In this document: positions 1,884 to 17,811 of the stretch, piece after piece | How the letters are laid out: each line of letters starts with the position of its first letter | How positions within the stretch are numbered: the first letter of the stretch is position 1 | Virus record (IMG/VR): IMGVR_UViG_3300028595_000046 | Coordinates: 1-31,031 of that record | From: a virus | Reading direction: 5' to 3' (one strand) | Length of the DNA: 31,031 nucleotides | Program-made: the position numbers and the translations under genes | Notes under the pieces: model-generated | Told to the model about the DNA's origin: nothing | The model's input: the letters and a program-made list of their open reading frames with translations, nothing else | Database searches by the model: none

Positions 1884-1937
1884 GAAAGGGATCGGGTGTC
1901 CATACCTGTTATAGTAGGCAGGACACTCGCCCTTTCA
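1884..1937 (-). repeat. Large imperfect stem-loop after the DUF669-like gene
   Basis: Outer arms GAAAGGG/CCCTTTC and inner arms GTGTCC/GGACAC, joined by a CG pair with a small bulge, form one long stem around a 19-nt loop. The outer arm reaches the stop codon at 1935-1937. It precedes the terminator at 1834-1863. It could be an RNA processing or stability element, or a binding site at DNA level. Confidence 0.5.
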
Positions 1938-2915
1938 GTCCTCAGCGAGGATGCCGGCTTCCTCCGCCGCGTCGACCACCGCGGTACGCTTCTTACGCAG
2001 CGTCTTGTGATCGTCCAGGTCCACGTCGAGCTCGTGCTCTTCGATGAGCTCCTCGAGCTCGTCCTGGTTCATGCCGTTGATGTCGTCGGCGGTCACTTCG
2101 CCTTCGCCGCCTTCGCCGCCATCGCCTTCACCGAGACCGGCTTCCTCGACAGCTTCGGCCAGCTCGTCCTCGTCGAGCTCAGCCAGTTTCTTGCGCAGCG
2201 TGTTGACACGCGACTTCGCCGTGACACGGATGCCAGCGGCTTCGGCGACGGCCTTGATGTCGTCATCGCTGGCCTCGTCAAAGTCGAACTCATCGCCCTC
2301 GTCATCGCCGCCTTCATCGCCTTCGCCCTCGTCCTCGATCAGGCCGAGTTCCTGCATGGCCTCGAGCAGCTCATCCTCGTCGGCCTCTTCGAGTTCCTTG
2401 CGGATCGTCGAGGCGCGCTTGGACTTGATGCCTATGGCCTTGCCGAGCTTCTTGATGTCGGCATCGTCGATGTCGTCCAGATCGACTTCATCGTCACCGC
2501 CTTCATCACCATCGGCTTCATGACCTTCGGCCGGCCAGAAGTCTTCGGGTTTGATGCGCGACTGCCCGTTGTAGGTGTCCTTGAACGTCGAGCACATAGC
2601 GACCTTGCCGACGAACTCGGCGGCGTATTCGTCCACGTCGAAGTCGTCCTCGGGCACATCACCCAAGAAGGCTTCGAAGACCTCGCGAGTACGCCACAGG
2701 GCGGAAGGGGAGAGCGATGCGTTGTGATACATCAGTGAGCCCTCGAACTCGCCCGTGCCTTCGAGCTTCATGCTGTAGTAGAGGCCGTTGTCGCCTTCCT
2801 CCACCTCGCATTCCTTGACCTTGACCAGGTACTCCTGTTCAGCGGCGAAGCCCTTGCCGACACCGGCGAAGGATGCTGTGCGTTTCGTCTTGCTGCGCGT
2901 GTTGCGTCGTGCCAT
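1935..2915 (-). CDS. DUF669-like ssDNA-binding-type protein with three C-terminal repeats
   Basis: 326 residues. The N-terminal ~125 residues (basic start MARRNTRSKTKR, then a beta-rich segment with YLVKVKECEVEEGDNGLYYSMKL split by FEGSLMYHNASLS) resemble the DUF669 phage family, usually found beside RecA-like ATPases and Cas4-like nucleases and presumed to bind single-stranded DNA. From about residue 145 come three related ~45-residue helical units separated by very acidic Asp/Glu/Gly linkers, each with the pattern D(D/E)-I/L...GI-R...TLRKKL...DELxEAxEEAGL. These look like SAP/HeH-type DNA-binding repeats. The start codon forms TGATG with the preceding ATPase stop and has an AAGGAG site. The family call is by resemblance; the repeats are seen directly. 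Confidence 0.7.
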   Translation of the reverse strand: MARRNTRSKTKRTASFAGVGKGFAAEQEYLVKVKECEVEEGDNGLYYSMKLEGTGEFEGSLMYHNASLSPSALWRTREVFEAFLGDVPEDDFDVDEYAAEFVGKVAMCSTFKDTYNGQSRIKPEDFWPAEGHEADGDEGGDDEVDLDDIDDADIKKLGKAIGIKSKRASTIRKELEEADEDELLEAMQELGLIEDEGEGDEGGDDEGDEFDFDEASDDDIKAVAEAAGIRVTAKSRVNTLRKKLAELDEDELAEAVEEAGLGEGDGGEGGEGEVTADDINGMNQDELEELIEEHELDVDLDDHKTLRKKRTAVVDAAEEAGILAED

Positions 2916-3757: not shown

Positions 3758-4709
3758 CGGTGTAATTCCTTTCCTTGACGAAGTCGACATCCAGGCCTTG
3801 CAGTCGCGCACGGCACAGAGATTCATAATCGCACCACGAGCAGTGCTTGTCAATGTTCATATCGGACACGCAACCATGGTTGTCGACCATTTCTCTGATA
3901 GTTGCTTCGAAGTCCGAGAACACCATGTCTGCCACGTCACGCTGGGCAGGCGTATGGATGCGCTGGAAGTACTCAGGGCGGTTCTTCTCAGCCATGACGC
4001 GCAGCGCGTCGACTTTGCCCAACTTATCCTGGTCGTGCTCAGCGATGGTGCGCTCAACTGTGGACGGCAGGGTGTCGATCTTCTTGGTGCTCAGCGTCCC
4101 GTCTTTGAGCACCCCCGGGATTGCCGGCGGCTTGGATTTAATATAGTCCCACACGCAGCCATCGAGTGGTTGCCAGCCGAGGATGTCGTTTGCGCGGAAG
4201 TAGGTAACTGACTGAAGGTTGCGCCAGCGGTCATCGTCATTAGGCTTGCGGGAATATGTCTTGTGCTCGACCAGCCACCGCAACTTGTTAGGCGTCTTAG
4301 CGATGGCATCAATCTTGCCGTTCCAGATGACGCCGGGGAATAACTCAATCTCGAAGGTGTGCTCGGCACCACGACGAGCCTTCCGGACAGGACGCAGATT
4401 ATCGCTGTCCCAATACTCGAGGTAGTCGGTGATAATGTCCTGGGTGTCCTCGAGGATGTCGCCATACTCATCGCGTTCTTGTGCAAACAACTTCATAGCT
4501 GCCACATCATTGCGCAGCTCATCAAAGTACTCCATTGGGTCATCACCGTTAAAGTGACGCTCGAGGGCTTCGTGGATCATTGTGCCAAACTGCAGCGGAC
4601 GGGACTTACCCTTCTTACGTAGCTTCTCGACATAACGATAGTGGTATGCTTGGTGGCAGCGACGGAACGTCTTAACCTTCGACTGCGAGACCATGAATTT
4701 GTCACTCAT
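3660..4709 (-). CDS. Cas4/RecB-like PD-(D/E)XK exonuclease with Fe-S cysteines
   Basis: 349-residue nuclease. Motifs: a first cysteine in FRRCHQAYHYRY (residue 18), FGTMIHEALERHF (His46, the RecB GxxxH motif), a core with IWNGKIDAIAKT (Asp) then LVEHKTYSRK (Glu-X-Lys), and a C-terminal CSWCDYESLC. The one-plus-three cysteine arrangement is that of the iron-sulfur cluster in Cas4, AddB and related phage exonucleases. It probably resects DNA ends for the RecA-like partner. The start MSDKFMV is chosen for its AAGGAA site and its ATGA overlap with the polymerase stop. The last ~33 residues overlap the ATPase start and are charged and non-conserved in appearance. No CRISPR array or other cas gene is present. 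Confidence 0.88.
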   Translation of the reverse strand: MSDKFMVSQSKVKTFRRCHQAYHYRYVEKLRKKGKSRPLQFGTMIHEALERHFNGDDPMEYFDELRNDVAAMKLFAQERDEYGDILEDTQDIITDYLEYWDSDNLRPVRKARRGAEHTFEIELFPGVIWNGKIDAIAKTPNKLRWLVEHKTYSRKPNDDDRWRNLQSVTYFRANDILGWQPLDGCVWDYIKSKPPAIPGVLKDGTLSTKKIDTLPSTVERTIAEHDQDKLGKVDALRVMAEKNRPEYFQRIHTPAQRDVADMVFSDFEATIREMVDNHGCVSDMNIDKHCSWCDYESLCRARLQGLDVDFVKERNYTDGTKNKKDTDSDKKPVIHRIDHAEVVARQEGD

Positions 4710-7288
4710 GCTGTTTCCTTCCATTGTGTTGCGATGTCAGCCACTGAGAACTTGTTGAGCAAGTCACCCACAGACAGCTGATGGATGTCGGCGACCTTGC
4801 GCGCTTTATCGAGGCTGATTGATTTGCCCCAAGGACCGAGGTCGCCGTCGGCTTCGATGGGAACAACCATCTCGATGTCAAACTCGTCCATCAAGTCGGG
4901 CCATTGCATGATCTCTAGCATCCGGGTGTAGACTTCCTCAACCATGTCATTGCGGACACGGAACAGTACGGCGTCATGCACAGTGCCGCATATCTTGACA
5001 ACATCTCGACCATACTCCTTACGGAGCTGTATCGCAGCCATGAGGTTCACTTCGTTTGCGAACGATTGCACAGGCGAGTTGATAGCCTGGCGCTCTGCTG
5101 CTCGGCGCTCAGGCGTGTCGTCAGTGTGTTTTGCCTCGGGCAGTCGACGCTTTCGACCTGACAGCGACTTGACATAGCCGTGGCGACGGGCATACTTCTT
5201 CTGTCGCTTGTGCCATGCGGGCAGCGCGGCGTAGTTGTCGAAGAACGTAGTGCGCGATGCTTCGGCTTCCTCGTCGGTCACGTTTACGCCGTAATTGTCG
5301 CGAGCGTATATCTTAAACTTCTTCCACCACATGCCATAAAGGTAGCCAAAGTTCACCGCCTTCGCTTTCTTACGATACTCCTTCCACTCCTTCTCAACCT
5401 CTGTGGCAACCTCATGACCGACCTCGAGCAACACTCTGATGGCGTCGGCATAGCTCATGTCATTGACACCCTTAATACGACACGCGGTGCCGATCACCAG
5501 GTCCTTCAAGCCGCCGCCGCGTTCGATCTCACGAATGGCAGTCAGCCAGTGAACGTCAATGCCATGAGTAAAGGCGTGGATCATTGCCGGTTCACGAGCA
5601 AGCTCAGCGGCGATCCTCAGCTCCGCCTGAGACAGGTCACACTGAATGAGCGTCCAACCCTTCTCAGCAGATATGAGGGAGCGGATGCGTGGGTCGCGTG
5701 GTACTTGCTGCAAGTTCGGGTGCTCGCAAGATAGACGCCCAGTGACTGTCCCGTGTAGCTTGAATGAGGGGTGCAGATAGTAACCCCTTGACTGTTTGTG
5801 AAGGAACGGCTTCCAACCGTCGATAAAGAACGAGAGTTGCTGCTTAGCCGCCCTAAAACGGAGAAGAGCCTCTGTGCAAGGGTGGTCAAGGCGTTTGATA
5901 ACTGACTCAGATGTAGAATAGCCGCCCGCATCGGTCTTATCAAGCGGCTTAATCCCGAGATGGTCGAAGAGCAACCACCTGAGCTGATCAGTGGAACCCC
6001 AGTTAAATCGGGTGGGGTCGTTTTTGCGACGGGCATCCTTGAAGTAGTAAACATCGCCATTCTTCTTGACATAGTGATCGGGCTCCCATTCCTCCAGCTC
6101 AGCGAGGGCTGCGTCATACTGCTCGCGCAGCACCTCCTCAGCTTCCTCGAATTGGTCCATGTCGATAAAGACACCATCATACTCGATCTCGACGAACAAG
6201 TTGGCACATGGCATCATAATCTTGTCAAAGACCCGCTTGACCTCCCAGTCGTCTTTTAGCATCTTGCCGAACACGTACCGAAGCTTGCGGGTGTAGAACA
6301 AGTCGTGGGCGAGGTATTTACAGTGCTTCTTCAACGGAACATTCATGCCCTGCTTTTCTGTCAGGTCGATCTCCCAGTCAGGCGCACCGCAATACACCTG
6401 AGCGAGATACTTCAAGCCATGACGCATGTTCTCGTCCAGCAGGAAGTGCGCCAGCATCGTATCGAAGTCAAGCTCCCATTTAACACCAAGATGAACCCAT
6501 GTCCACAGGAGGTCAAATTTGCCGTTGTGGGCTATAAGCATGAAGTCGTCACGTTTGTCTGTGACACGATCCATCATGTCTTCTACTTCGGCTTGAGACC
6601 AAGGGGACTGTGGGTGATTGACGGGCACACACCATTGATTGCGCGCTGTGCCGAAGCCAAGGCTGACGATCTTAGGCTCCGGGTCCAACTCCCATTCGCC
6701 AGTTCGATCATTCAGCTTCTGGGTTCGCCAGGGGTAAAGCTGTGTTGTCTCGATGTCATAAGACACGGCGCCATGGAGGTCCTCGAGCATCTCTTCCACG
6801 TCATCGTCGGACATGACGATCCGAAAGTGCAGGTCCTTGGCTTCGGGTATGCCGCCGAACCGAACCATGTCATCGAGAAACCTAAGGTCGGCGTTTAGCA
6901 ACGTCTCCTGCTTGTCGTCATGTCGGATGATGCCGGGGTTGTTCATCGGTAGGAAGATGAAGCCATCCTGCTTGATGGGACGTCCGCGCATCTTGCTAAT
7001 ACCGGCTTTGCCCGTGATCGCTTGAAGCGGCGTGTTCCCGACGAGCACCACATACTTGAAGCCAGCAATGCGCTTCCACAGAGCATCGCGGTTATGCTTG
7101 ATCTCAGTCTTGGTCGCAGCCTTGCCATTTTTTGGGTCACCATCAAGCAAGGAGAAGCGAGCCACTTGATAGCGCTCCTTTAGTGGCTCCATGATATATT
7201 CGACTGCGTCCCATGTCCTCGGGCAGTCATCTGGACTCTCTGTGATGACTGCAATCTTTTCAAGTTGTTTGCGGGTTCTATGTTTCAA
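4706..7288 (-). CDS. Family A DNA polymerase with 3'-5' exonuclease and UDG-like N-terminus
   Basis: 860-residue replicative polymerase. Exonuclease motifs: YDIETT (~177-182), IAHNGKFD (~252-259), YLAHD (~325-329). Polymerase motif A CDLSQAELRIAAELA (Asp ~551), motif B RKKAKAVNFGYLYG (~639-652), motif C VHDAVLF (~770-776). All catalytic acidic residues are present. Residues 1-150 are not part of a usual PolA: VVLVGNTPLQAITGK, ISKMRGRP and LPMNNPGIIRHD followed by LNADLRFLDDM resemble family 4/5 uracil-DNA glycosylase motifs, but a clear GEAPG-type catalytic loop is missing. The start is a TTG at 7286-7288, preceded by AAGGAG and overlapping the deaminase stop by 11 bases; the first in-frame ATG would delete about 30 residues of the extra domain. 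Confidence 0.93.
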   Translation of the reverse strand: MKHRTRKQLEKIAVITESPDDCPRTWDAVEYIMEPLKERYQVARFSLLDGDPKNGKAATKTEIKHNRDALWKRIAGFKYVVLVGNTPLQAITGKAGISKMRGRPIKQDGFIFLPMNNPGIIRHDDKQETLLNADLRFLDDMVRFGGIPEAKDLHFRIVMSDDDVEEMLEDLHGAVSYDIETTQLYPWRTQKLNDRTGEWELDPEPKIVSLGFGTARNQWCVPVNHPQSPWSQAEVEDMMDRVTDKRDDFMLIAHNGKFDLLWTWVHLGVKWELDFDTMLAHFLLDENMRHGLKYLAQVYCGAPDWEIDLTEKQGMNVPLKKHCKYLAHDLFYTRKLRYVFGKMLKDDWEVKRVFDKIMMPCANLFVEIEYDGVFIDMDQFEEAEEVLREQYDAALAELEEWEPDHYVKKNGDVYYFKDARRKNDPTRFNWGSTDQLRWLLFDHLGIKPLDKTDAGGYSTSESVIKRLDHPCTEALLRFRAAKQQLSFFIDGWKPFLHKQSRGYYLHPSFKLHGTVTGRLSCEHPNLQQVPRDPRIRSLISAEKGWTLIQCDLSQAELRIAAELAREPAMIHAFTHGIDVHWLTAIREIERGGGLKDLVIGTACRIKGVNDMSYADAIRVLLEVGHEVATEVEKEWKEYRKKAKAVNFGYLYGMWWKKFKIYARDNYGVNVTDEEAEASRTTFFDNYAALPAWHKRQKKYARRHGYVKSLSGRKRRLPEAKHTDDTPERRAAERQAINSPVQSFANEVNLMAAIQLRKEYGRDVVKICGTVHDAVLFRVRNDMVEEVYTRMLEIMQWPDLMDEFDIEMVVPIEADGDLGPWGKSISLDKARKVADIHQLSVGDLLNKFSVADIATQWKETA

Positions 7289-7745
7289 TGTCTACCAGCT
7301 CCTTCGTATTCCAGTCAACAGTATAACCCGCTGGCGTCACTCTGTAAATACCGATCCTCTCATCGACCAGATGGTCATTGATACGGTAAGGGGTGCCGAA
7401 GAAAATACGATCAACACCCCCATGCTCCTTGATCTTGTGGAAGCAGGAGGCACAGGGACTGTCGGTCACATAAAGGTCAAGCCCAGTCCATCTTACCGGG
7501 TTCGGGTGAAAGGGCAAGTGACGGAGCGCATTGTCCTCGGCATGGATCGTTTCGTGGCAGTGGTACTTGCCTGGGCACTCATTGCCCGCACAATGGGGAG
7601 CGCCTGCGGGTGCCCCGTTGTAGCCGATGCTGACAATCCTACGGTCCTGCACGATCACGGCGCCGACGTTGAGCCTCATGCACGTTGACCTCTTAGCCAC
7701 GACATGCGCGATTTCCATGAACATCTGCGGACGACTAGGTCTCAT
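7278..7745 (-). CDS. dCMP deaminase
   Basis: 155-residue zinc-dependent deaminase converting dCMP to dUMP. The zinc site is HAE at residues 68-70 (HAEDNAL) and PCASC at 97-101. Extra Cys/His residues in GAPHCAGNECPGKYHCHE match the second-zinc insertion seen in ComEB/T4 Cd-type dCMP deaminases rather than cytidine deaminases. The ATG has GGGAG 9-10 bases upstream and overlaps the preceding gene by 11 bases. It sits with two thymidylate-synthase-fold genes, a MazG-like hydrolase and a P-loop kinase, so it supplies or balances pyrimidine deoxynucleotides. Confidence 0.93.
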   Translation of the reverse strand: MRPSRPQMFMEIAHVVAKRSTCMRLNVGAVIVQDRRIVSIGYNGAPAGAPHCAGNECPGKYHCHETIHAEDNALRHLPFHPNPVRWTGLDLYVTDSPCASCFHKIKEHGGVDRIFFGTPYRINDHLVDERIGIYRVTPAGYTVDWNTKELVDIET

Positions 7746-8022
7746 AGGTCTCAGCTCCCATCTTCAGTAGGGTGTTCACCAAGTGGATGAAGCGCTTGAG
7801 GTCGTGCTTGCTCATCCATCGCTTACCCGCCAGATGGCAGCACCAGTGGAGAAGCTTGAGCGGGTCGTCAATCCTCGACCTGTCTATCGAGTAGGGCTCA
7901 ACGTGTGGGCCATAGGCATAGATGTCGAAGGTGCGAGTTTTCCGGTCATATCTCATGACCAGGTCATTCTGGTTCGAGCCCATCCCGCCCAGCTCCCGAG
8001 CAGTAATTGTTTTCAGACCCAT
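7735..8022 (-). CDS. Unknown 95-residue protein
   Basis: MGLKTITARELGGMGSNQND followed by a short beta-like stretch (DLVMRYDRKTRTFDIYAYG) and a helical C-terminal half with LLHWCCHLAGKRWMSKHDLKRF. I do not recognise a family. The start at 8022 is preferred to an upstream in-frame ATG because it forms TAATG with the stop of the gene before and has CGGAG nine bases upstream. Co-transcribed with the nucleotide-metabolism genes on both sides. Confidence 0.75.
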   Translation of the reverse strand: MGLKTITARELGGMGSNQNDLVMRYDRKTRTFDIYAYGPHVEPYSIDRSRIDDPLKLLHWCCHLAGKRWMSKHDLKRFIHLVNTLLKMGAETYET

Positions 8023-8360
8023 TAGAAAGACTCCGAAAAGTAAAGTATAGCAATGGTGGTTATAGCCATCAGAGAAGCTAAGGTGACCAACACCAGCCAT
8101 AACGGCACAGTTTTACGTTCACCCGGCTCGAAGGGGTAAGACGTCTCAAGGGTCATAGGCGGGTGGGTATTGCCCCAGCAGTGGAACCAGATATGACCAT
8201 TCCACAGACAGGACCAGCGTTCTCGCCACGTCATTTCCCACTTGCTTATTACCATACCCCCCTCTGGGTGACGCCAAATCGGCAAGGCATATACCTCGTC
8301 CTCATGGCCCTCGGGAGGTAGGAGTTTCATGTTGGCTTCCGGGAATTGTGCGCCTTTCAT
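8022..8360 (-). CDS. Conserved-type phage protein with C-terminal membrane segment
   Basis: 112 residues. The central part, GGMVISKWEMTWRERWSCL then NGHIWFHCWGNTHPPMTLET, follows a pattern I associate with a widespread small phage protein of unknown function (GG.(I/V)xS+WxxSWRER...G.(I/V)Wxx(V/C).G.TxPPxxL). The C-terminus adds a hydrophobic helix of about 24 residues (VPLWLVLVTLASLMAITTIA...) after a basic ERK stretch, so the protein probably sits in the inner membrane with most of it cytoplasmic. ATG overlaps the upstream stop (ATGA) and has a GGGGGG ribosome site. Function unknown. Confidence 0.75.
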   Translation of the reverse strand: MKGAQFPEANMKLLPPEGHEDEVYALPIWRHPEGGMVISKWEMTWRERWSCLWNGHIWFHCWGNTHPPMTLETSYPFEPGERKTVPLWLVLVTLASLMAITTIAILYFSESF

Positions 8361-9250
8361 TTCGGGCCCCCCTTTTGCATCTGGATAAAGTCATTGGCGA
8401 AGACGTGCAGGCTGGTGCAGTGCATCGTCAAGGTGCCGGGCGTGATGTCATCCCATGGGTTGGTTACATCGGGATATTCTGAGAAATACCTGCATTGGTC
8501 TAGCACCCATAGCATGAGCCGGATCGTCAGGTAAATGTCATCCTGCATGTGGTGCATGAAGTCGCACGAGCGCAGCGGGTAGTAGCAGTGCAGCTGGTTG
8601 TTGCGCACCCAGAACTGGTAGCCGAGCGAACACGGCTTGCGACCCCCGACGACTTCCCCTACGTCTTCCGGATGGAAGATTGGGAACCACTCCTGACGCG
8701 ACAACGGGTTGGCAGCAAGCGACCGGACAAGGTCGTCAAGGTCGCCGTATTCATTGCGGATGCCTCTGTTGGTGTGACGCTCGGCAGTGTAGCCATTCTT
8801 CCTTTGCCAGTCGTCGGCATCCTTCGAGGGGAGGCACTTAGACCGGGCATGTTTCGGCCAGTACCGCTCCATGTAGTTATGGTTGAACATACCGTTCTCA
8901 TCGCGGTGACCATCGGCGCTTGAGCCCCAAGGCCAGTTCGCCCACTCAACGCCGGGATTGATCGGCGCACCGCAGACGCGCTCCTCGAAGTGGTCATCAG
9001 CCCAAGGAAGGTTCGGCTTGATGTCATCGCGGTAGTGCTGCAGGTCTTCGACACCGTGCAGGCTGTGGGTAAAGGTGTAGTTCATCAGCTCACGGCTGGC
9101 GAACTCGGGCTTGCCAGGACGACCCTGCCAAGGGGCCGGCGGCACCTCGTGGGACTGATGTAGGAACAGGTTCCACGTGTGCTGTCGGATGCGTGTAAAA
9201 GTGTCCCGCCCACTAAGGTAGTTGAAAGGCATGATACGTTCATGCTCCAT
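8357..9250 (-). CDS. Thymidylate-synthase-family protein, likely dCMP-type hydroxymethylase
   Basis: 297 residues, full TS fold. Recognisable blocks: SRELMNYTFTHSLHG (Glu54, matching E. coli Glu58), NPLSRQEWFPIFHPEDVG (the dimer-contact SRR motif, here SRQ), KPCSLGYQFWV (catalytic Cys207), RSCDFMHHMQDD (Arg227, Asp230) and SLHVFAND (His282). Cys-to-Arg spacing is 20, as in E. coli TS. Eleven residues after Arg227, where TS has Asn177, this protein has Asp238; T4 dCMP hydroxymethylase has Asp at this place. The expected product is therefore 5-hydroxymethyl-dCMP rather than dTMP; this is inference. The start at 9250 is set by GGGAGG and an 11-base overlap with the gene upstream. Confidence 0.82.
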   Translation of the reverse strand: MEHERIMPFNYLSGRDTFTRIRQHTWNLFLHQSHEVPPAPWQGRPGKPEFASRELMNYTFTHSLHGVEDLQHYRDDIKPNLPWADDHFEERVCGAPINPGVEWANWPWGSSADGHRDENGMFNHNYMERYWPKHARSKCLPSKDADDWQRKNGYTAERHTNRGIRNEYGDLDDLVRSLAANPLSRQEWFPIFHPEDVGEVVGGRKPCSLGYQFWVRNNQLHCYYPLRSCDFMHHMQDDIYLTIRLMLWVLDQCRYFSEYPDVTNPWDDITPGTLTMHCTSLHVFANDFIQMQKGGPK

Positions 9251-9551
9251 CGTCAGTGCCTCCCATGTCGACTTCCTTGGTGCCACGGAGCTCAGCACGG
9301 ATGCTGTCGGCAACGCGGCGCAGTTCGTTTCGGCCGATGGTCCCAACGTACTCGTTGTTCTCGGCCTTGAGCAGGCGGCGCAGCTGCGCGTCCTTCTCGG
9401 CGAACGCGGTCAGCATGTCGTCCTGCTGCTCGTCGTCCTGGTCATCCTCGTCGGGATCACCGTCCTCGATTTCCTTGGCCGGGATGTCCCGCGCCTCGGC
9501 ATCGTCTTCGGTGAAAGGCTCCTTGTTCTGCGGGGAGCGGCGTCGTGCCAT
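9240..9551 (-). CDS. Small acidic protein with basic N-terminus, unknown
   Basis: 103 residues: MARRRSPQNKEP, then a very acidic stretch (EIEDGDPDEDDQDDEQQDD), then a helical, probably coiled-coil half (MLTAFAEKDAQLRRLLKAE...RNELRRVADSIRAELRG). Two tandem ATGs (9554 and 9551) both lie behind AAGGAG; the second gives better spacing and the recurrent MARR start, and both overlap the stop of the preceding gene. Lying between the two TS-fold genes, it might be a partner or scaffold for them, but nothing in the sequence proves it. Confidence 0.65.
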   Translation of the reverse strand: MARRRSPQNKEPFTEDDAEARDIPAKEIEDGDPDEDDQDDEQQDDMLTAFAEKDAQLRRLLKAENNEYVGTIGRNELRRVADSIRAELRGTKEVDMGGTDDGA

Positions 9552-10369
9552 CATTCGTCTCCTTCTTCGTCCGGATCGACATAGTCGTCTTTCATTCCGG
9601 GATGGTTGTCGCCCACATACTCAGTCAGTTCCTCGAGCACGTCGGGGTCCATGAGTTTGTGGAGCATGGTGTGGACACGCATGCCTTGGGCATATTTCTG
9701 GATGCCACGATGGTACTCCTCGATGGTATAGCGCGCTGTCCACTTGACGCACCAGGTCCAGAAATGGGGGTCGACCTTCTCGATTGCCTCGAGTGCCGCA
9801 ATTGGGTCCTCGAGGTTCGGTGCCAGTGTCGCGAAGTACATCGGATTCACCGTGACGTTGGCAAAGAAGAAGGTCAGTTTGGTAAGGGGAGCAGGATCGA
9901 AGTCGAACGGCGGCAGCAGGACGTCTCGGATGAATACCAGGTCCGCCGAGAACTTCTTGAAGACCTCGGTCGTGCGGTAGTACGCATGAGCTTCGGTCGT
10001 GTGGTTCCCATGGTATGTCAGAGACATCGACTGGATGCACGGCGTGAGCACGGAGGCTCGCTTGCTCCCCTTGTTCGGATCGGACTTCGTCGTGTGACCA
10101 TGTGTCGTGAACGAGACACTGCCGTACTTGCGCTGCTTGAGGCGCTTATCCCACAGGGGCACGACAGCGAGCTGCGACTCCTCGACGAGGTAGTGGCGTC
10201 TCAGCATGGACATCTTCGACTTGGTATAACCCGCATCCTCCATCACCAGGTCATCGCTGATGTCTGTGAAGGTGCGGGTCACGTTGCTGACGATCTTGCG
10301 AAAACCCGACACTTCGTCGGCAGGTGTCGCCATCATGTCGAGGCAGAATTTTATCCACTCATTCTTCAT
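9551..10369 (-). CDS. Diverged thymidylate-synthase-fold protein
   Basis: 272 residues. Not an obvious TS, but the core geometry matches: VLTPCIQSMSLTYHG (Cys111) followed 21 residues later by YYRTTEVFKKFSADL, in which Arg132 and Asp143 are 11 residues apart, as Arg166 and Asn177 are in E. coli TS, again with Asp in place of Asn. A preceding KYGSVSF and a following TFFFANVTVNPMY could be the remaining core strands. The TS Asp169 position is Glu. The last ~80 residues are helical with an acidic tail. Together with the neighbouring TS-family gene this makes a diverged paralogous pair. It could act on a different nucleotide or be a non-catalytic subunit. An unrelated fold is possible. Confidence 0.5.
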   Translation of the reverse strand: MKNEWIKFCLDMMATPADEVSGFRKIVSNVTRTFTDISDDLVMEDAGYTKSKMSMLRRHYLVEESQLAVVPLWDKRLKQRKYGSVSFTTHGHTTKSDPNKGSKRASVLTPCIQSMSLTYHGNHTTEAHAYYRTTEVFKKFSADLVFIRDVLLPPFDFDPAPLTKLTFFFANVTVNPMYFATLAPNLEDPIAALEAIEKVDPHFWTWCVKWTARYTIEEYHRGIQKYAQGMRVHTMLHKLMDPDVLEELTEYVGDNHPGMKDDYVDPDEEGDE

Positions 10370-10643
10370 CGGGAACCCCCAACTGCTTCCGGATGTCCTC
10401 GAGGTGTGCAGTGAACTCGGCAGCGGCGCGGAACAGTTGCTTCTTCTGCTCCCACTGCGGGTCCTTCTGCATCTCGATGAACATCTGGGGGTTGAGCACC
10501 GATCCTGCCCCCTCGAACAGGTTGATGGTGTCGGCGAGGTGTTGCCAGTCGAACGTGCTGAGCAACTCCATGGCGGAACGCACCGCGCTCATCGCCATGT
10601 GAAAGTCCTCAGAGCTTTCAATCTGTTTCTTGTCTGTGTCCAT
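10359..10643 (-). CDS. Unknown small helical protein
   Basis: 94 residues, MDTDKKQIESSEDFHMAMSAV..., predicted mostly helical, with no motif that I recognise. The start at 10643 has a perfect AGGAGG seven bases upstream. It overlaps the next gene by 11 bases, and a promoter-like sequence (10,663-10,691) lies just before it. Confidence 0.65.
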   Translation of the reverse strand: MDTDKKQIESSEDFHMAMSAVRSAMELLSTFDWQHLADTINLFEGAGSVLNPQMFIEMQKDPQWEQKKQLFRAAAEFTAHLEDIRKQLGVPDEE

Positions 10644-10662
10644 GATGAACCTCCTGAGCAGC

Positions 10663-10691
10663 ATTGTACTCGATCACGCGACCGAGCACAA
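10663..10691 (-). promoter_or_regulatory. Possible internal leftward promoter
   Basis: Minus strand TTGTGC, 17-bp spacer, TACAAT. The -10 box matches consensus at five of six positions and the spacing is ideal. The start point would fall close to the AGGAGG of the 94-residue gene, leaving a very short leader. Confidence 0.4.
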
Positions 10692-10702
10692 CGCCATTTG
10701 TC

Positions 10703-11380
10703 TCACGCTCGATCTGCGTGGGATTGGTGGATGTCATTGCACTCGACCAGGTCGGTGTGCGTGGGCTTCTCCCAGCCGGCGGGTTTCACCACGTCCAGCG
10801 TCGAGCCGCGCTTGCTGTCGCTGTCGAGTTCCGCACGGACCTTCTGCATGTTCGCCGCGTGAACCCGGCGCCAGGCCTCGGCAAAGATCGGGGCGAAGCC
10901 ATGAAGGTAGACGGTACCGAACAGGACATAGGCCAGGTCGACCAATCCATCGAGTGCCTCTTCGAGGTGATGGGTGTAGTTTGCTTCATCACGATCCAGC
11001 AGCTGGCGGGTCGTCTCGTAGTAGGCCTCGGTCTGGTGCTTGTACCACTCAGCCAGTTCTTCTTGAAGAAGCTTCATCCGAAAGTCCATGGTCTCACTGT
11101 CAAGCGCCCCCATCGGGTGCAATGCTTCAAGATCGAACTTGGTGTGGAATTCCTCGATGTCGGCTAGGGGGTTGAACTCTACCCCTTCCCGCGCAGGACC
11201 CATGGGCTCGAAGCGGCCATCGAAGAACTCAGCCTTTGACCTTGCCACAATAGGGCTGTTGGGGTCACCATGATGGACATAGACCACAGCGTCTTCCCAA
11301 GTGGCTTCAAGTTTGGCATTGTCCGACAATACTTCGTAGACACGGCCGGTCTTGACGTGACGATAGAGCTTATTTGGCAT
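10703..11380 (-). CDS. MazG-like NTP pyrophosphohydrolase with DUF1653-like N-terminus
   Basis: 225 residues. The first ~60 (KLYRHVKTGRVYEVL...AVVYVHHGD...EFFDGRFEPM) look like the DUF1653 beta domain. The rest is an all-alpha NTP pyrophosphatase: FRMKLLQEELAEW (the EExxE metal helix), HHLEEALDGLVDLAYVLFG (second metal helix, E...D) and WRRVHAANMQKV, the typical MazG-like C-terminal helix. Members hydrolyse (d)NTPs to NMPs; T4 dCTPase/dUTPase gp56 is in this superfamily. In this operon it could remove dCTP to supply dCMP. The start at 11380 is the one that overlaps the kinase stop by 11 bases; the ribosome site (AAGAAAG) is weak. Confidence 0.78.
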   Translation of the reverse strand: MPNKLYRHVKTGRVYEVLSDNAKLEATWEDAVVYVHHGDPNSPIVARSKAEFFDGRFEPMGPAREGVEFNPLADIEEFHTKFDLEALHPMGALDSETMDFRMKLLQEELAEWYKHQTEAYYETTRQLLDRDEANYTHHLEEALDGLVDLAYVLFGTVYLHGFAPIFAEAWRRVHAANMQKVRAELDSDSKRGSTLDVVKPAGWEKPTHTDLVECNDIHQSHADRA

Positions 11381-11879
11381 GGGATAGTTCTTTCTTGATG
11401 GAGTCAATGATAGCCTCTGTGGTAGTACCGAGGTGGGGGTCCTCGATGGAGTACCAGCAAAAGACGGGAACGTGGGTGGAACCCCACTCGTGGTAGGCAT
11501 CGCGGATACTGTTGTCATGTTCCTCGATCATCGCCAGATGCTCGAGCGTGTCGGCATGACTGTTATCGGCGATATGGGGTCCTCGACCGTAGCAGTAGAT
11601 AAAAAACGGCTTCGACGCATAGAAACGGTCAACGAGGTGTTGCGGCACACCTTCACCGTTCGTCCGGAACCGGTCATAGATCAGTTGGGACACGCAGGGA
11701 TGCCGGTCGAAGAGGCAGTTGTTCAAGCGCAGGTAGCGCTCGACACGTTCGGGCATCTCGCCCGGGTATTTGGGAGGACCTTCCCCAGGCGTATATGCTA
11801 ACGCGGGAACGTGTTGCAATATAACGCGAGCGAGCGTTGACTTGCCCGATCCATCGGGTCCTTCGAGTACAATGTTCAT
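11370..11879 (-). CDS. P-loop kinase (thymidylate/deoxynucleotide-kinase-like)
   Basis: 169 residues. MNIVLEGPDGSGKSTLARV carries Walker A (residues ~8-15) in the form typical of thymidylate kinases; CLFDRHPCVSQLIYDRFR carries the DR(H/Y) motif that precedes the lid. It is shorter than a standard Tmk (about 210). Candidate roles are phosphorylation of (modified) dNMP, like T4 gp1, or a 5-hydroxymethyl-uracil DNA kinase as in phages with hypermodified thymine. It is the first gene of the leftward early operon, 29 bases after the predicted transcription start, with an AAAGG site. The start at 11879 is preferred because the longer frame begins upstream of the promoter -10 box. Confidence 0.8.
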   Translation of the reverse strand: MNIVLEGPDGSGKSTLARVILQHVPALAYTPGEGPPKYPGEMPERVERYLRLNNCLFDRHPCVSQLIYDRFRTNGEGVPQHLVDRFYASKPFFIYCYGRGPHIADNSHADTLEHLAMIEEHDNSIRDAYHEWGSTHVPVFCWYSIEDPHLGTTTEAIIDSIKKELSHAK

Positions 11880-14174: not shown

Positions 14175-14576
14175 TCAGACGCTCGCTGTGCGTCGCTGTG
14201 CTGCTTCGTCAAGGCGTGTCGCAATGCGCTCGCGATTGATGCACAGTGCTTCGCGTGTAGGCGTGTAGTCACGCTGCAGGCAGGAAGGCACGTTGCCCAT
14301 GAGTTGCTTGCGATTGGGCTTGAGCGTGACGTTGAACCCGCGGCGACGACACTCGGCATAGAGGTCGCGCTGACGCAGGTAGCAGAACTGCAACCGGCAA
14401 TAGAAGAACTTTACGTGACCGGTGCCGAGGCGATATGTGTCCGGCAGGTCATCGACGTTACCCCCTTTGCGATGCCATTTCTGTGCAGCACGGAAGACGC
14501 GAGGAAGTTCGCGGTACTCGGCGAGCAGGTGCTTGTCAGTCAGTTCGGTGACAGGCACGACATTGATACGTGTCAT
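14175..14576 (-). CDS. denV: Pyrimidine-dimer DNA glycosylase/AP lyase (T4 DenV type)
   Basis: 133 residues, close in length to T4 endonuclease V (138). The N-terminus MTRINVVPVTELTDKHLLAE and following YRELPRVF keep every known active-site residue: Thr2 (nucleophile once Met is removed), Arg3, Arg22, Glu23 and Arg26. Further blocks GTGHVKFFYCRLQF and RDLYAECRRRGFNV are also family-typical. The enzyme excises UV-induced cyclobutane dimers and cleaves the abasic strand. The ATG at 14576 is required to place Thr at position 2; an upstream TTG in frame would destroy the mechanism. ATG overlaps the stop of the previous gene (ATGA). Confidence 0.93.
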   Translation of the reverse strand: MTRINVVPVTELTDKHLLAEYRELPRVFRAAQKWHRKGGNVDDLPDTYRLGTGHVKFFYCRLQFCYLRQRDLYAECRRRGFNVTLKPNRKQLMGNVPSCLQRDYTPTREALCINRERIATRLDEAAQRRTASV

Positions 14577-14779
14577 TTCCAAAGCCTTTCGCCGAAGGGC
14601 AACTCGTCAGGAGACGTGGGTTGCTGATTGATGAAGACAGCCGTCGGCATGTTCATGCGGTTGTACCAGTCACGAACCTCGCGACTTTCGCGAGCGCTTT
14701 TTACGGGATCGACGTTTCGGCGCCGGGTTTTCTGGTTCGGTTTCGGGATCGTATAGAAGTGGTAGTACCGGGCTGTCAT
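14573..14779 (-). CDS. Unknown 68-residue basic protein
   Basis: MTARYYHFYTIPKPNQKTRRR..., basic and Tyr/Arg-rich at the start, with REVRDWYNRMNMPTAVFINQ towards the end. No family recognised. The AAGGAGG site six bases before the ATG is among the best in the window, which supports reality even though the first 37 codons overlap the preceding gene in another frame. Confidence 0.6.
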   Translation of the reverse strand: MTARYYHFYTIPKPNQKTRRRNVDPVKSARESREVRDWYNRMNMPTAVFINQQPTSPDELPFGERLWK

Positions 14780-14963
14780 GGCAGGCCTCCTTAGTTGTGT
14801 ATATGTCCCAAACGATGCGAGCGTCTCGGGATCGTTTGATTATATCAGACGCCTCTATCAAGGTAAATACTGTGGCATCTTCCGGGTTCTTGCAAAGCCC
14901 TACATCCTTACGATAGCGGACTTTGCCATTGGGCCATGTATATTTGATGCGGTATTTTAGCAT
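14670..14963 (-). CDS. Unknown 97-residue protein with basic tail
   Basis: MLKYRIKYTWPNGKVRYRKDVG begins a small beta-rich domain with VFTLIEASDIIKRSRDARIVWDIY; the C-terminal 30 residues are Pro/Glu then Arg/Lys/Ser rich (PAPKRRSRKKRSRKSRG) and overlap the next gene by 110 bases. The start has GAGGAG and overlaps the SprT-like stop by seven bases. No function recognised; the tail could bind nucleic acid. Confidence 0.6.
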   Translation of the reverse strand: MLKYRIKYTWPNGKVRYRKDVGLCKNPEDATVFTLIEASDIIKRSRDARIVWDIYTTKEACHDSPVLPLLYDPETEPENPAPKRRSRKKRSRKSRGS

Positions 14964-15586
14964 ACCATCTCCTCGTGGCACTCACCGCATACTATAGAGA
15001 TATCTGCTTTGGCATAGGCGTTAAGCCCACACGTTGGGCACGAGTACTTGGTGCGCTTGCTACCCTTTTTAACACGCTCGATAGGGGCGCCGCGCCATTC
15101 GATCCTCCCCTTAAACTTCGCCTCAGCTTTGTCGAAGTCGCCGCCGTCGATGATGTAGTGCGACACGCGGCGACCAGTGCGCTTGCCGCCAGGTGCGCCT
15201 GTGGAGGATGGCATCAAACCTATCTCTTCCATCTTGTCGGCCCATTCCTTGTCATGCGCAGTCTTCTTGTTATCGACTCCGAAGTGGTGCTGCCACAGGT
15301 GTACCATCTCGTGGACAAGCGTCGAGTAGATCTCCCGGTCTGTCCGGCCCGCGAAGGTGAACGGATTAAGGGAAATTTCGTCGGCTGATGCGTCCTTGTG
15401 CTTCGTGCCCTTGAACGGATGGTTCCGGTAATAGCCATAAGCATTCCGGAGTTCATTGCTCAGGGTGATGAGACAGTGTGGCAGTAGGTCGTCGAAGATC
15501 TCAGCGTTGAAGTGATCGTAGGCCTGCTGGAGCACTGGATATGTGTCAGTCGTAGGCTTGTAGGCTGGTTTCTTCTTGCGGGTCAT
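14957..15586 (-). CDS. SprT-like zinc metalloprotease-fold protein
   Basis: 209 residues. YPVLQQAYDHFNAEIFDDLLP is the usual SprT opening; TLVHEMVHLWQHHFG carries HExxH at residues 92-96; a later H in SHYIIDGGDF or TAHDKEW may complete the zinc site. The C-terminus is a four-Cys zinc ribbon (CPTCG ... CGECHEEMVC). SprT/Spartan relatives cut DNA-protein crosslinks in eukaryotes; the bacterial and phage versions are poorly characterised. The start at 15586 has GGGAGAG and skips 14 unlikely upstream residues. Encoded two genes from the dimer glycosylase, consistent with a DNA-damage or genome-protection role. Confidence 0.85.
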   Translation of the reverse strand: MTRKKKPAYKPTTDTYPVLQQAYDHFNAEIFDDLLPHCLITLSNELRNAYGYYRNHPFKGTKHKDASADEISLNPFTFAGRTDREIYSTLVHEMVHLWQHHFGVDNKKTAHDKEWADKMEEIGLMPSSTGAPGGKRTGRRVSHYIIDGGDFDKAEAKFKGRIEWRGAPIERVKKGSKRTKYSCPTCGLNAYAKADISIVCGECHEEMVC

Positions 15587-15587
15587 A

Positions 15588-15815
15588 TCAGCTCTCCCAT
15601 GCTTCGCCGGGGGCGTAGGGGTTTTCATTGTAAGGGACGGAGGAGCCTGCTGCTAGCCACAGGAACTCCTGTTCATCGCAGTCCTCGGCTATTGTCACGT
15701 TGGACAGTGGCGCTCGAAGTGGCCACGAAGGTTGGTAGGCGACACGGACTTCGGGGTCACTGTCAGTCTGCTCCGCCAGTTCGGTCAGACGGAAGATAAG
15801 TTCGGAAAGGGTCAT
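15588..15815 (-). CDS. Small conserved-type phage protein, unknown
   Basis: 75 residues, MTLSELIFRLTELAEQTDSDPEVRVAYQPSWPLR..., an N-terminal helix followed by beta strands (NVTIAEDC, FLWLAAGSS). The pattern (helix, DPEVRVAxQPxWP) is like a small phage protein family of unknown function. ATG with AAGGAG; its ATGA overlaps the upstream gene. Confidence 0.7.
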   Translation of the reverse strand: MTLSELIFRLTELAEQTDSDPEVRVAYQPSWPLRAPLSNVTIAEDCDEQEFLWLAAGSSVPYNENPYAPGEAWES

Positions 15816-16114: not shown

Positions 16115-16357
16115 TTAAATCTTGTTGTCGAGCGTGGTAAAGAAGTACTTAAACCGACTCATATCCTCGGGGGTCTTGAACCTCCACTCCCTCTCTTTAC
16201 CCAAAGGAGCTGTGACAAAGTAGTTGTTACGGAGTCTTGCCCCCACTATTCTCGGGTCGGGGTAGTTACCCTTAGTTCGGCAGCTAAAAGGGTAGTCTTT
16301 GGCACGATCCTCCAGCCACTTCACATTGTATCGGTATTGCTCAACGCTCAGGGTCAT
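16115..16357 (-). CDS. Unknown 80-residue protein
   Basis: MTLSVEQYRYNVKWLEDRAKDYPF..., with a likely helix then a beta-rich part (NNYFVTAPLGKEREWRFKTPEDMSRFKYFF). No family recognised. AAGGTG precedes the ATG, and the gene overlaps the end of the capsid-fold gene by 17 bases, so the two are probably translated together. Confidence 0.65.
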   Translation of the reverse strand: MTLSVEQYRYNVKWLEDRAKDYPFSCRTKGNYPDPRIVGARLRNNYFVTAPLGKEREWRFKTPEDMSRFKYFFTTLDNKI

Positions 16358-17057
16358 ATCGAAACACCTTCAGGGCCTCGGAGACTCTGGGGGCGCCATT
16401 GACAGCACGGCGGGCATGGAACAGAACCATTGGCTTCTTGCTGAAGGGGTCTCTGGTAATGACCGTATCAGGTGCCGATGCGATCTGGTAGGCCTCGCTG
16501 AAGTCACCAAAAGCAAGGCTCTGGTGTTGGGCTTCGACATCCTCCCACAGTGGCCAACCTAACAGACTTCCTGGCACACCATGACAGGGGGGCTGTTGGT
16601 AGATAAAGCGACCGTCGCCATCAGTCATGCGTTTGAGGATGTGCAACGTGTCGGGATGAGTCATCCAAGAGGCCTTGATACGATAACGAACGCTCAGCTT
16701 ATACACAAACGAGATGAGCGCTTCACTGCTCAGCTGTTCTGTCACGCGCTGATAGCTCGTGCTCGTGAACACTCCTTGAGGCTCGTCGCTTCGTGTGCCC
16801 GTCGCGAAGGCCTTGTCCTCCTCGCGCCTGAGCAGCATGTGGAGCTCCTCATTGATCGACGCAGTTACCACCTCGATGGGAGTGTCGTCAAGCCAATTCT
16901 GCGGACGCTCCACAATCGCGTTTACCTCGGCTATTGGGTCGTGCTCGGTGATTACCGTGGTTGCCAGTTGACGCATAGTCGATGGCATATAGGGCGATGC
17001 GACGGATACCCTGCACTCCCCACTACCACCATCACGGTAGAAGTTGTATTCAGACAT
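16341..17057 (-). CDS. Protein with HK97-type major capsid domain, shortened
   Basis: 238 residues. From about residue 60 it reads like a HK97-family capsid protein: INEELHMLLRREEDKAFATG then EPQGVF (the E..F..G.G...P.G signature), ALISFVYKLSVRYRIKASWM, TLHILKRMTDGDGRFIY, GSLLGWPLWEDV, LAFGDFSEAYQI, TRDPFSKKPMVLFHARRAVNG and SEALKVFRY at the end. The P and A domains are thus covered; the N-terminal arm, E-loop and delta/scaffold region are mostly missing (usual length 300-400). It sits among regulatory genes transcribed opposite to terminase and portal, directly behind an intrinsic terminator. The start at 17057 has CGGAG. It may be the real capsid protein in an odd place, a second minor capsid protein, or a capsid-derived regulator or decoy. 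Confidence 0.75.
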   Translation of the reverse strand: MSEYNFYRDGGSGECRVSVASPYMPSTMRQLATTVITEHDPIAEVNAIVERPQNWLDDTPIEVVTASINEELHMLLRREEDKAFATGTRSDEPQGVFTSTSYQRVTEQLSSEALISFVYKLSVRYRIKASWMTHPDTLHILKRMTDGDGRFIYQQPPCHGVPGSLLGWPLWEDVEAQHQSLAFGDFSEAYQIASAPDTVITRDPFSKKPMVLFHARRAVNGAPRVSEALKVFRYDPER

Positions 17058-17070
17058 GGTTTTCTCCGGA

Positions 17071-17099
17071 ATAAAAAGAGGCGGGATTTCACTCCCGCC
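17071..17099 (-). terminator. Intrinsic terminator directly upstream of the capsid-fold gene
   Basis: Read leftward: perfect 7-bp stem GGCGGGA / TCCCGCC, loop GTGAAA, then TCTTTTTAT. It ends the transcript of the 231-residue gene and lies only about 14 bases before the capsid-fold start codon; no other promoter is evident in between, so the downstream gene depends on read-through. Confidence 0.8.
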
Positions 17100-17115
17100 C
17101 ACTGTCGTTAAAGTA

Positions 17116-17811
17116 TCAGTCGCTGTAGACCCACCCTTGTTCATCATGGTGGGTTGCAAGGTGCTTGGGATCCAGGTGGTCCAGCATGTCATCCATCAGA
17201 AGGACGTGTTGGATCGCCCCATTGACCATAAACACCGAGATGCCTTCGCCGTGGATGCCCGGGTGATAGGACGCCGCGTCTGTCTGATAGTAGGTGGGAT
17301 CGAAGATTATGTCCGGCAGATACTCGCGCAGCTCATCAAACGCCCGGGCCCAGAGCACATGGGGGTCGATGTTGCCCTCGTTGTCGTAGAGCGGCCGCTC
17401 CATCAGCTCCTCGAAGGGGTCACGACGGGGCTTCGATAGCTCAGCAATGGCCCTCAAAAAGTCATAGGCGCTTGAGCCTTCCTCCCCGAGGCTGATGGGC
17501 TCAACATGGAAGCCCAGGACTTCCTCGATGCTGTCTGCATGCTCTGGGGCCACCGACTTCGCCAGCAAGGTTGCCAAATCCATGGCAGCTTTCGGGTCCG
17601 TACAGAGCCCATATGCGATACGGTCACTGAGGGGCGATCGCTCGTTGTCAGACCGGTTGTCACGGCGATAGAGGTTGAAAATGAACTCAGAGAGCTGTTC
17701 TTCGGTTGTCTTGGTCATGTTGATTTCCTTGGATTTGGTGGACATACGTCCAGTGGTTGTGCCAAAATGGCGGAGACGGTGGGCAACCATACGGGGGATG
17801 AAATTGCTCAT
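17116..17811 (-). CDS. Unknown 231-residue protein
   Basis: No family recognised. Features: a Thr/Lys-rich start, helical TEEQLSEFIFNLYRRDNRSDNER, a helical middle (AAMDLATLLAKSVAPEHADSIEEVLG), and an acidic, His-containing C-terminus with HVLLMDDMLDHLDPKHLATHHDEQGW. Two starts are plausible: 17811, which forms ATGA with the upstream stop and has GGGGGTGG, or 17718 (MTKTTEEQ), which has a better-spaced AAGGAA and would give 200 residues. The sequence between them has coding-like third positions, so the longer form is given. Confidence 0.65.
   Translation of the reverse strand: MSNFIPRMVAHRLRHFGTTTGRMSTKSKEINMTKTTEEQLSEFIFNLYRRDNRSDNERSPLSDRIAYGLCTDPKAAMDLATLLAKSVAPEHADSIEEVLGFHVEPISLGEEGSSAYDFLRAIAELSKPRRDPFEELMERPLYDNEGNIDPHVLWARAFDELREYLPDIIFDPTYYQTDAASYHPGIHGEGISVFMVNGAIQHVLLMDDMLDHLDPKHLATHHDEQGWVYSD

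Follow-up and report, generated by a model that had tools for sequence, protein, structure and literature searches.

A phage operon with two thymidylate synthase-fold proteins as a probable pathway for nucleotide-level cytosine modification

Introduction

Why should a phage that encodes a thymidylate synthase (TS)-family enzyme of the dCMP type need a second TS-fold protein as its partner? The question is posed by IMGVR_UViG_3300028595_000046, a virus record in IMG/VR that we analysed over its whole length of 31,031 bases (the window). On its minus strand, a chain of overlapping open reading frames (ORFs) runs from position 11879 down to 7278 and then into the gene for a family-A DNA polymerase (PolA); along it lie, in this order, a P-loop kinase, a MazG-like pyrophosphohydrolase, a divergent TS-fold protein (TS2), a TS-superfamily enzyme (TS1) and a dCMP deaminase. 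A preliminary description, made from the sequence, had read these five proteins as one leftward operon continuing into the polymerase, which our analysis confirms, and had likened the operon to the hydroxymethylation route of phage T4. In the T4 scheme, a pyrophosphatase removes dCTP, a kinase serves the product and a deaminase feeds dTMP synthesis. That likeness holds as far as cytosine modification at the nucleotide level is concerned, to which the residue signature of TS1, ThyX genes in some of the phages with the module and a domain set known from modified phage contigs all point; as a T4-type hydroxymethylation route it is less secure, as TS1 falls outside the clade of T4 gp42 and carries a mixed signature. 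We conclude that the operon probably encodes a nucleotide-level cytosine-modification pathway that is T4-like in its logic and works with enzymes of its own. Such logic was already known; what is chiefly new is the obligate pairing of TS1 and TS2.

Results

TS1 (8357..9250, minus strand) is a 297-residue protein with an ATG start at 9250 that matches PF00303 (3e-7) and PHROG 160 (4e-28). Its relatives were gathered from 62 IMG/VR loci and 105 isolate phage records, and a residue table (n=60) was drawn up in the numbering of E. coli ThyA. Cys207, Ser208, Asp230, His234, Asp238, His282 and Phe284 of the window protein take ThyA positions 146, 147, 169, 173, 177, 207 and 209. Both Cys146 and the cytosine-type Asp177 occur in 60/60 relatives, so that the Asp at the base-recognition position, to which the preliminary description had drawn attention, proves to be invariant. 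Asp169, His173 and His207 are each found in 60/60 as well, Phe209 is kept in 58/60, and position 147 holds Thr in 42 proteins and Ser in the other 18. These residues place TS1 among the cytosine-type members of the TS superfamily.

But how far can single positions predict the base? The MetaGPA study, in which phage DNA was selected through the enzymatic resistance of its cytosines, found PF00303, PF01503, PF00383 and PF14437 to co-occur in modified contigs, and TS positions 147 and 177 to be the best discriminators between cytosine-modified and unmodified contigs (PMC8670742). The window has all four domains, plus Asp177 and Ser147. Unlike the MetaGPA contigs with their 5-hydroxymethylcytosine carbamoyltransferase (PMC8670742), none of the 38 phages with the gene module (the order given above) that we searched contains a Carbam_trans_C domain (0/38). 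According to the literature as cited in the same paper (PMC8670742), a change of TS Asn177 to Asp moves the substrate from dUMP to dCMP.

The plainest alternative is an ordinary thymidylate supply, in which dTMP comes from TS1 and is phosphorylated by the kinase, the MazG-like protein is a dUTPase-type enzyme, the deaminase feeds dUMP and the DNA is canonical. All genes but TS2 do have homologues in the ordinary dTMP pathway, and most records are annotated accordingly. However, Asp replaces Asn177 in 60/60 TS1 proteins, and an additional ThyX occurs in 7 of 42 module records, within the operon itself in MW202777, so that TS1 and TS2 are not needed there as dTMP synthases; TS2 would, moreover, be left unexplained. 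We consider ordinary dTMP metabolism in place of a modified product very improbable. There is hardly any likelihood of a modified thymine made through 5-hydroxymethyl-dUMP, as in phages SPO1 or M6. The enzymes share a superfamily and the conserved block includes a thymidylate-kinase-like protein, but the dUMP hydroxymethylases of SPO1 and M6 have Asn147/Asn177 (ThyA has His147/Asn177) and form a separate clade, and the Pfam scan of the window lists no thymine-hypermodification family.

If the substrate is dCMP, TS1 could also be a dCMP methylase, giving 5-methylcytosine genome-wide like Xanthomonas phage Xp12. Asp177 by itself turns a TS into a dCMP methylase, as the literature is cited in PMC8670742, and phage AXL1, a near relative of Xp12, for which 5-methylcytosine has been shown, has a TS with Asp177 whose gene neighbours encode a nucleotide pyrophosphohydrolase and a dCMP deaminase. 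AXL1 stood in for Xp12 in our residue and tree comparisons; in these, its TS shows Pro147 and falls with ThyA, away from TS1, and no TS2 was detected in the half of AXL1 examined. Dihydrofolate reductase (DHFR), which regenerates tetrahydrofolate after the methylase reaction, is present in all Pamexvirus phages, AXL1 included, but clear in only 1/38 module phages. A hydroxymethylase releases tetrahydrofolate and can do without DHFR. A methylase is thus quite unlikely.

The tree and the remaining residues place TS1 between the known cytosine-type enzymes. Over 113 core columns, TS1 proteins are monophyletic (bootstrap 100) on a long branch of their own, apart from T4 gp42, the 5-hydroxy-dCMP synthases, the dUMP hydroxymethylases and ThyA, with deeper branching weakly supported. 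T4 gp42, a dCMP hydroxymethylase, has Cys146, Thr147, Asp169, Gly173, Asp177 and Tyr209; the RB69 5-hydroxy-dCMP synthase has Cys146, Thr147, Asn169, Val173, Asp177 and Phe209. Asp169 is common to TS1 and the folate-using references, where the 5-hydroxy-dCMP synthase group has Asn. As the TS1 signature is partly of the T4 type (Thr147, Asp169, Asp177) and partly of the 5-hydroxy-dCMP synthase type, TS1 is a candidate dCMP 5-hydroxymethylase.

Several observations weigh against the hydroxymethylation pathway proposed here. TS1 lacks Gly173 and has Phe209 and a short C-terminal tail, as the 5-hydroxy-dCMP synthases do, and a profile comparison with the PDB ranks the dCMP hydroxylase entries 9iqu/9iqc first, though only by a narrow margin over TS N229D and MilA. 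Three alignments disagree on the TS1 equivalent of Glu58, the kinase and the MazG-like protein are assigned from family matches alone, and TS1 is present in some large phages that have no recognisable TS2. In the literature on the carriers, no virion nucleoside analysis was found for any of them.

The first of these points lean towards hydroxylation by TS1. In the corresponding alternative, TS1 and/or TS2 are flavin-dependent 5-hydroxy-dCMP synthases similar to RB69 ORF048c or AfhB (9iqu/9iqc), and the DNA contains 5-hydroxycytosine, perhaps further decorated. Such enzymes exist (PMC13390438), and 9iqu is also the best PDB fold match of TS2. However, TS1 has Asp169/His173 and TS2 a Glu at the 169-equivalent position, not Asn169/Val173, and TS1 lies outside the hydroxylase clade. 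The module has two TS proteins, and no sugar-activation cluster was seen; known 5-hydroxycytosine phages glycosylate this base, but Glycosyltransferase 2 domains, sought in 38 module phages, were detected in only 2. The closest named relative of the window, Desulfofustis phage LS06-2018-MD02 (OP947159, 46 kb, complete), has been linked through CRISPR spacers to the sulphate reducer Desulfofustis (PMC10370329), presumably a host ill suited to an O2-dependent monooxygenase. Folate-dependent hydroxymethylation is favoured by the retention of Asp169, by how seldom DHFR occurs and by the host of this relative, which is probably anaerobic. We regard the hydroxylase alternative as unlikely. The structure model of TS1 (AlphaFold2, AF2; predicted local distance difference test score, pLDDT, 83.8) matches MilA, TS, 9iqu and T4 gp42 about equally in Foldseek.

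What, then, is TS2? This 272-residue protein (9551..10369, minus strand) matched no Pfam or NCBIfam family, and hhalign against TS gave a probability of at most 4%, that is, no profile-profile support for a TS fold, so that the fold is resolved by structure prediction only. The AF2 model (pLDDT 87.8) retrieves TS-superfamily entries in 50 of the 50 PDB matches listed by Foldseek, headed by the flavin-dependent phage dCMP hydroxylase 9iqu (E 2.5e-6) and followed by TS and MilA; the second TS-fold paralogue proposed in the preliminary description is thereby supported. Its top viral structural match is an uncharacterised protein of Pseudomonas phage PMBT14, and TS2 relatives match PHROG 34294, a family of unknown function. 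By motif spacing, Cys111, Arg132, Glu135 and Asp143 correspond to TS Cys146, Arg166, Asp169 and Asn177. Cys111 is conserved in 63/63 relatives, and Arg132, Asp143 and Glu135, the last at the position matching 169, in 65/65; from Arg132 to Asp143 the spacing is the same (+11) as between R166 and N177 of TS. Residues held at TS spacing suggest that TS2 is a TS-fold protein of the cytosine type that is competent for catalysis, and not a dead scaffold.

The TS2 relatives, gathered from IMG/VR and isolates, come from 65 non-redundant loci, and TS1 accompanies TS2 in 65/65, counting one locus that is split across two contig ends. The exact order kinase-MazG-TS2-TS1-deaminase-PolA is kept in 42 of these loci, most others being truncated or minor variants, so that the gene set is no chance assembly. 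It recurs in proteobacterial phages, with cultured carriers in Serratia (Serbin, Tlacuache, Opt-155), Yersinia (P744), Brevundimonas (Strzyga) and Pseudomonas (PMBT14, Lebethron); in the latter two, a hypothetical protein occupies the TS2 position. The large phages with TS1 and no recognisable TS2 indicate that TS2 is not universally required. Of the TS1 loci in which no TS2 is recognisable, three (L046, L048 and L050) have a neighbour resembling gp47 of mycobacteriophage Muddy, a diverged TS2 candidate described below, strongly so in two, which makes the absence of TS2 partly a matter of detection limits.

Further observations concern the history of the two proteins. Enzymes of the TS1 clade are also present in phages of about 50-319 kb that have neither the remaining module nor a recognisable TS2 (L045, L052-L060 and similar contigs). 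Compared with the closest IMG/VR relative (L010), TS2 is 94% and PolA 93% identical, TS1 only 70%; compared with L035 (IMGVR_UViG_3300048590_000532), TS2 is 44% identical and most neighbours 62-82%. It looks as if TS1 and TS2 were exchanged or followed separate evolutionary paths. Between its N-terminal region and its catalytic core, the TS1 of L035 (3515-4699) has an in-frame insert of about 100 residues similar to a LAGLIDADG endonuclease (LAGIIDGEGSL), possibly an intein, an intron or a homing insertion. We rejected TS2 as a bacterial gene: among 84,980 bacterial and archaeal species genomes it was found on only two contigs of metagenome-assembled genomes, both probably viral.

The identities that had been assigned to the kinase, the MazG-like protein and the deaminase are borne out by family matches and motifs. 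The kinase (11370..11879, minus strand), the first gene of the conserved order, is a P-loop kinase for (deoxy)nucleoside monophosphates that resembles dTMP kinases (PHROG 761 thymidylate kinase, 4e-10; TIGR00041, 2e-4) with the Walker A motif GPDGSGKST and DRH; it is a candidate for phosphorylating modified dCMP, as a functional analogue of T4 gp1. Its stop overlaps the ATG start, at 11380, of the gene for the MazG-like all-alpha NTP pyrophosphohydrolase (10703..11380, minus strand; PF01503, 1.7e-4; PHROG 671, 2e-18), which has the motif EELAE...EEALDGLVD and about 80 additional N-terminal residues and is a candidate dCTPase in the place of T4 gp56. Comparison of both proteins with the PDB gave no informative match. 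The dCMP deaminase (7278..7745, minus strand; PF00383, 7e-21; PF14437, 3e-9; PHROG 174, 8e-44), with its zinc motifs HAE and SPCASC visible, is the functional analogue of T4 Cd. Its gene overlaps that of PolA (4706..7288, minus strand; PF00476, 1e-70), which includes a 3'-5' exonuclease (PF01612, 5e-13) and, as had been noted, is not of the T4 type; it would be the polymerase that uses modified dCTP.

Discussion

How could these proteins work together? For the substrates, the product, the replacement of cytosine in virion DNA and the role of TS2, we infer the following scheme. The MazG-like protein would convert dCTP to dCMP and so remove the normal precursor. TS1 would then use the TS mechanism to place a one-carbon group, most likely hydroxymethyl, on C5 of dCMP, with Cys207 attacking C6 and Asp238 picking cytosine. 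TS2 may aid TS1 as a partner subunit or catalyse a further step on that nucleotide. The kinase would phosphorylate the modified dCMP, PolA would insert the resulting modified dCTP instead of deoxycytidine, and the deaminase would turn surplus dCMP into dUMP for dTMP synthesis. We give 5-hydroxymethyldeoxycytidine about an even chance of being the product; in descending order, 5-hydroxydeoxycytidine is unlikely, 5-methyldeoxycytidine quite unlikely and some other product very unlikely, with canonical dTMP metabolism below them all. More tentatively, TS1 and TS2 could form an obligate two-protein system, either a heteromeric enzyme or a two-step cascade, that makes an undescribed cytosine modification in widespread phages including Muddy.

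The proposed pathway is close to that of T4 (gp56, gp42, gp1, Cd) in combining a pyrophosphatase, a TS-family enzyme with Cys, Thr147 and Asp177, a monophosphate kinase and a dCMP deaminase. In contrast to T4, TS1 forms a separate clade without the gp42-type Gly173 and Tyr209, the pyrophosphatase is MazG-type, the kinase TMK-type and the polymerase family A, TS2 is extra, and no glucosyltransferase is recognised. The latter agrees with the preliminary description, which had seen neither a glucosyltransferase nor a hypermodification enzyme in the window: none turned up in 20 Pfam families, nor among 25 of 41 PHROG families listed. As most module phages lack glycosyl- and carbamoyltransferases of the searched families, the base may carry no decoration, or one added by an enzyme that went unrecognised.

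The therapeutic mycobacteriophage Muddy (L141, KF024728, 34731-37942) has the same gene order, with a TS2-like protein in the TS2 position, from gp49 to gp44. Its gp47 has diverged very far from TS2 (12.5 bits) but keeps the Cys and the Arg-to-Asp spacing of +11; gp46 is TS1, gp45 has deaminase motifs, and the MazG-like protein is annotated as dUTPase. Muddy DNA may be cytosine-modified. On M. abscessus GD276A, a strain with a restriction system that limits phage BPs, Muddy forms plaques efficiently (PMC11604996). This fits, indirectly, with protected DNA but can be explained in other ways too.

The scheme predicts modified cytosine in many phages that are annotated with an ordinary thymidylate synthase and a hypothetical protein, among them the cultured phages of Serratia, Yersinia, Pseudomonas and Brevundimonas as well as Muddy. 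If this is true, many restriction enzymes should fail to cut the DNA of the carriers, with consequences for how such phages cope with host defences. PHROG 34294, in turn, gains an identity as a TS-fold family.

Other genes of the window

Four small minus-strand ORFs without known function lie within the operon. A 101-residue ORF (10359..10664) has homologues in close relatives only (L001 and the L003-L016 group, 60-97% identity), and an acidic 104-residue ORF between TS2 and TS1 (9240..9554) is likewise confined to close relatives. They are followed by a 112-residue ORF with a hydrophobic stretch at its C terminus (8022..8360) and a small ORF (7735..8055; PHROG 12459, 1e-5).

Outside the operon, the ORF at 1935-2915 (minus strand) was considered as a hypermodification enzyme owing to a weak HhH-GPD match and rejected; its product is acidic and conserved, belongs to the replication block and by inspection is similar to single-stranded DNA-binding proteins. 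In most module phages it is conserved alongside the PolA-Cas4-Sak4 block; in Muddy it corresponds to gp41, and in isolates it is annotated as hypothetical. A pyrimidine-dimer glycosylase of the T4 endonuclease V family (14175-14582, minus strand; PF03013, 3e-13) has annotated homologues in L001 and L071. A protein with an HK97-type capsid domain (16341-17192, minus strand; PF05065, 2e-30) lies outside the structural module, near an SprT-like protein (14957-15628).

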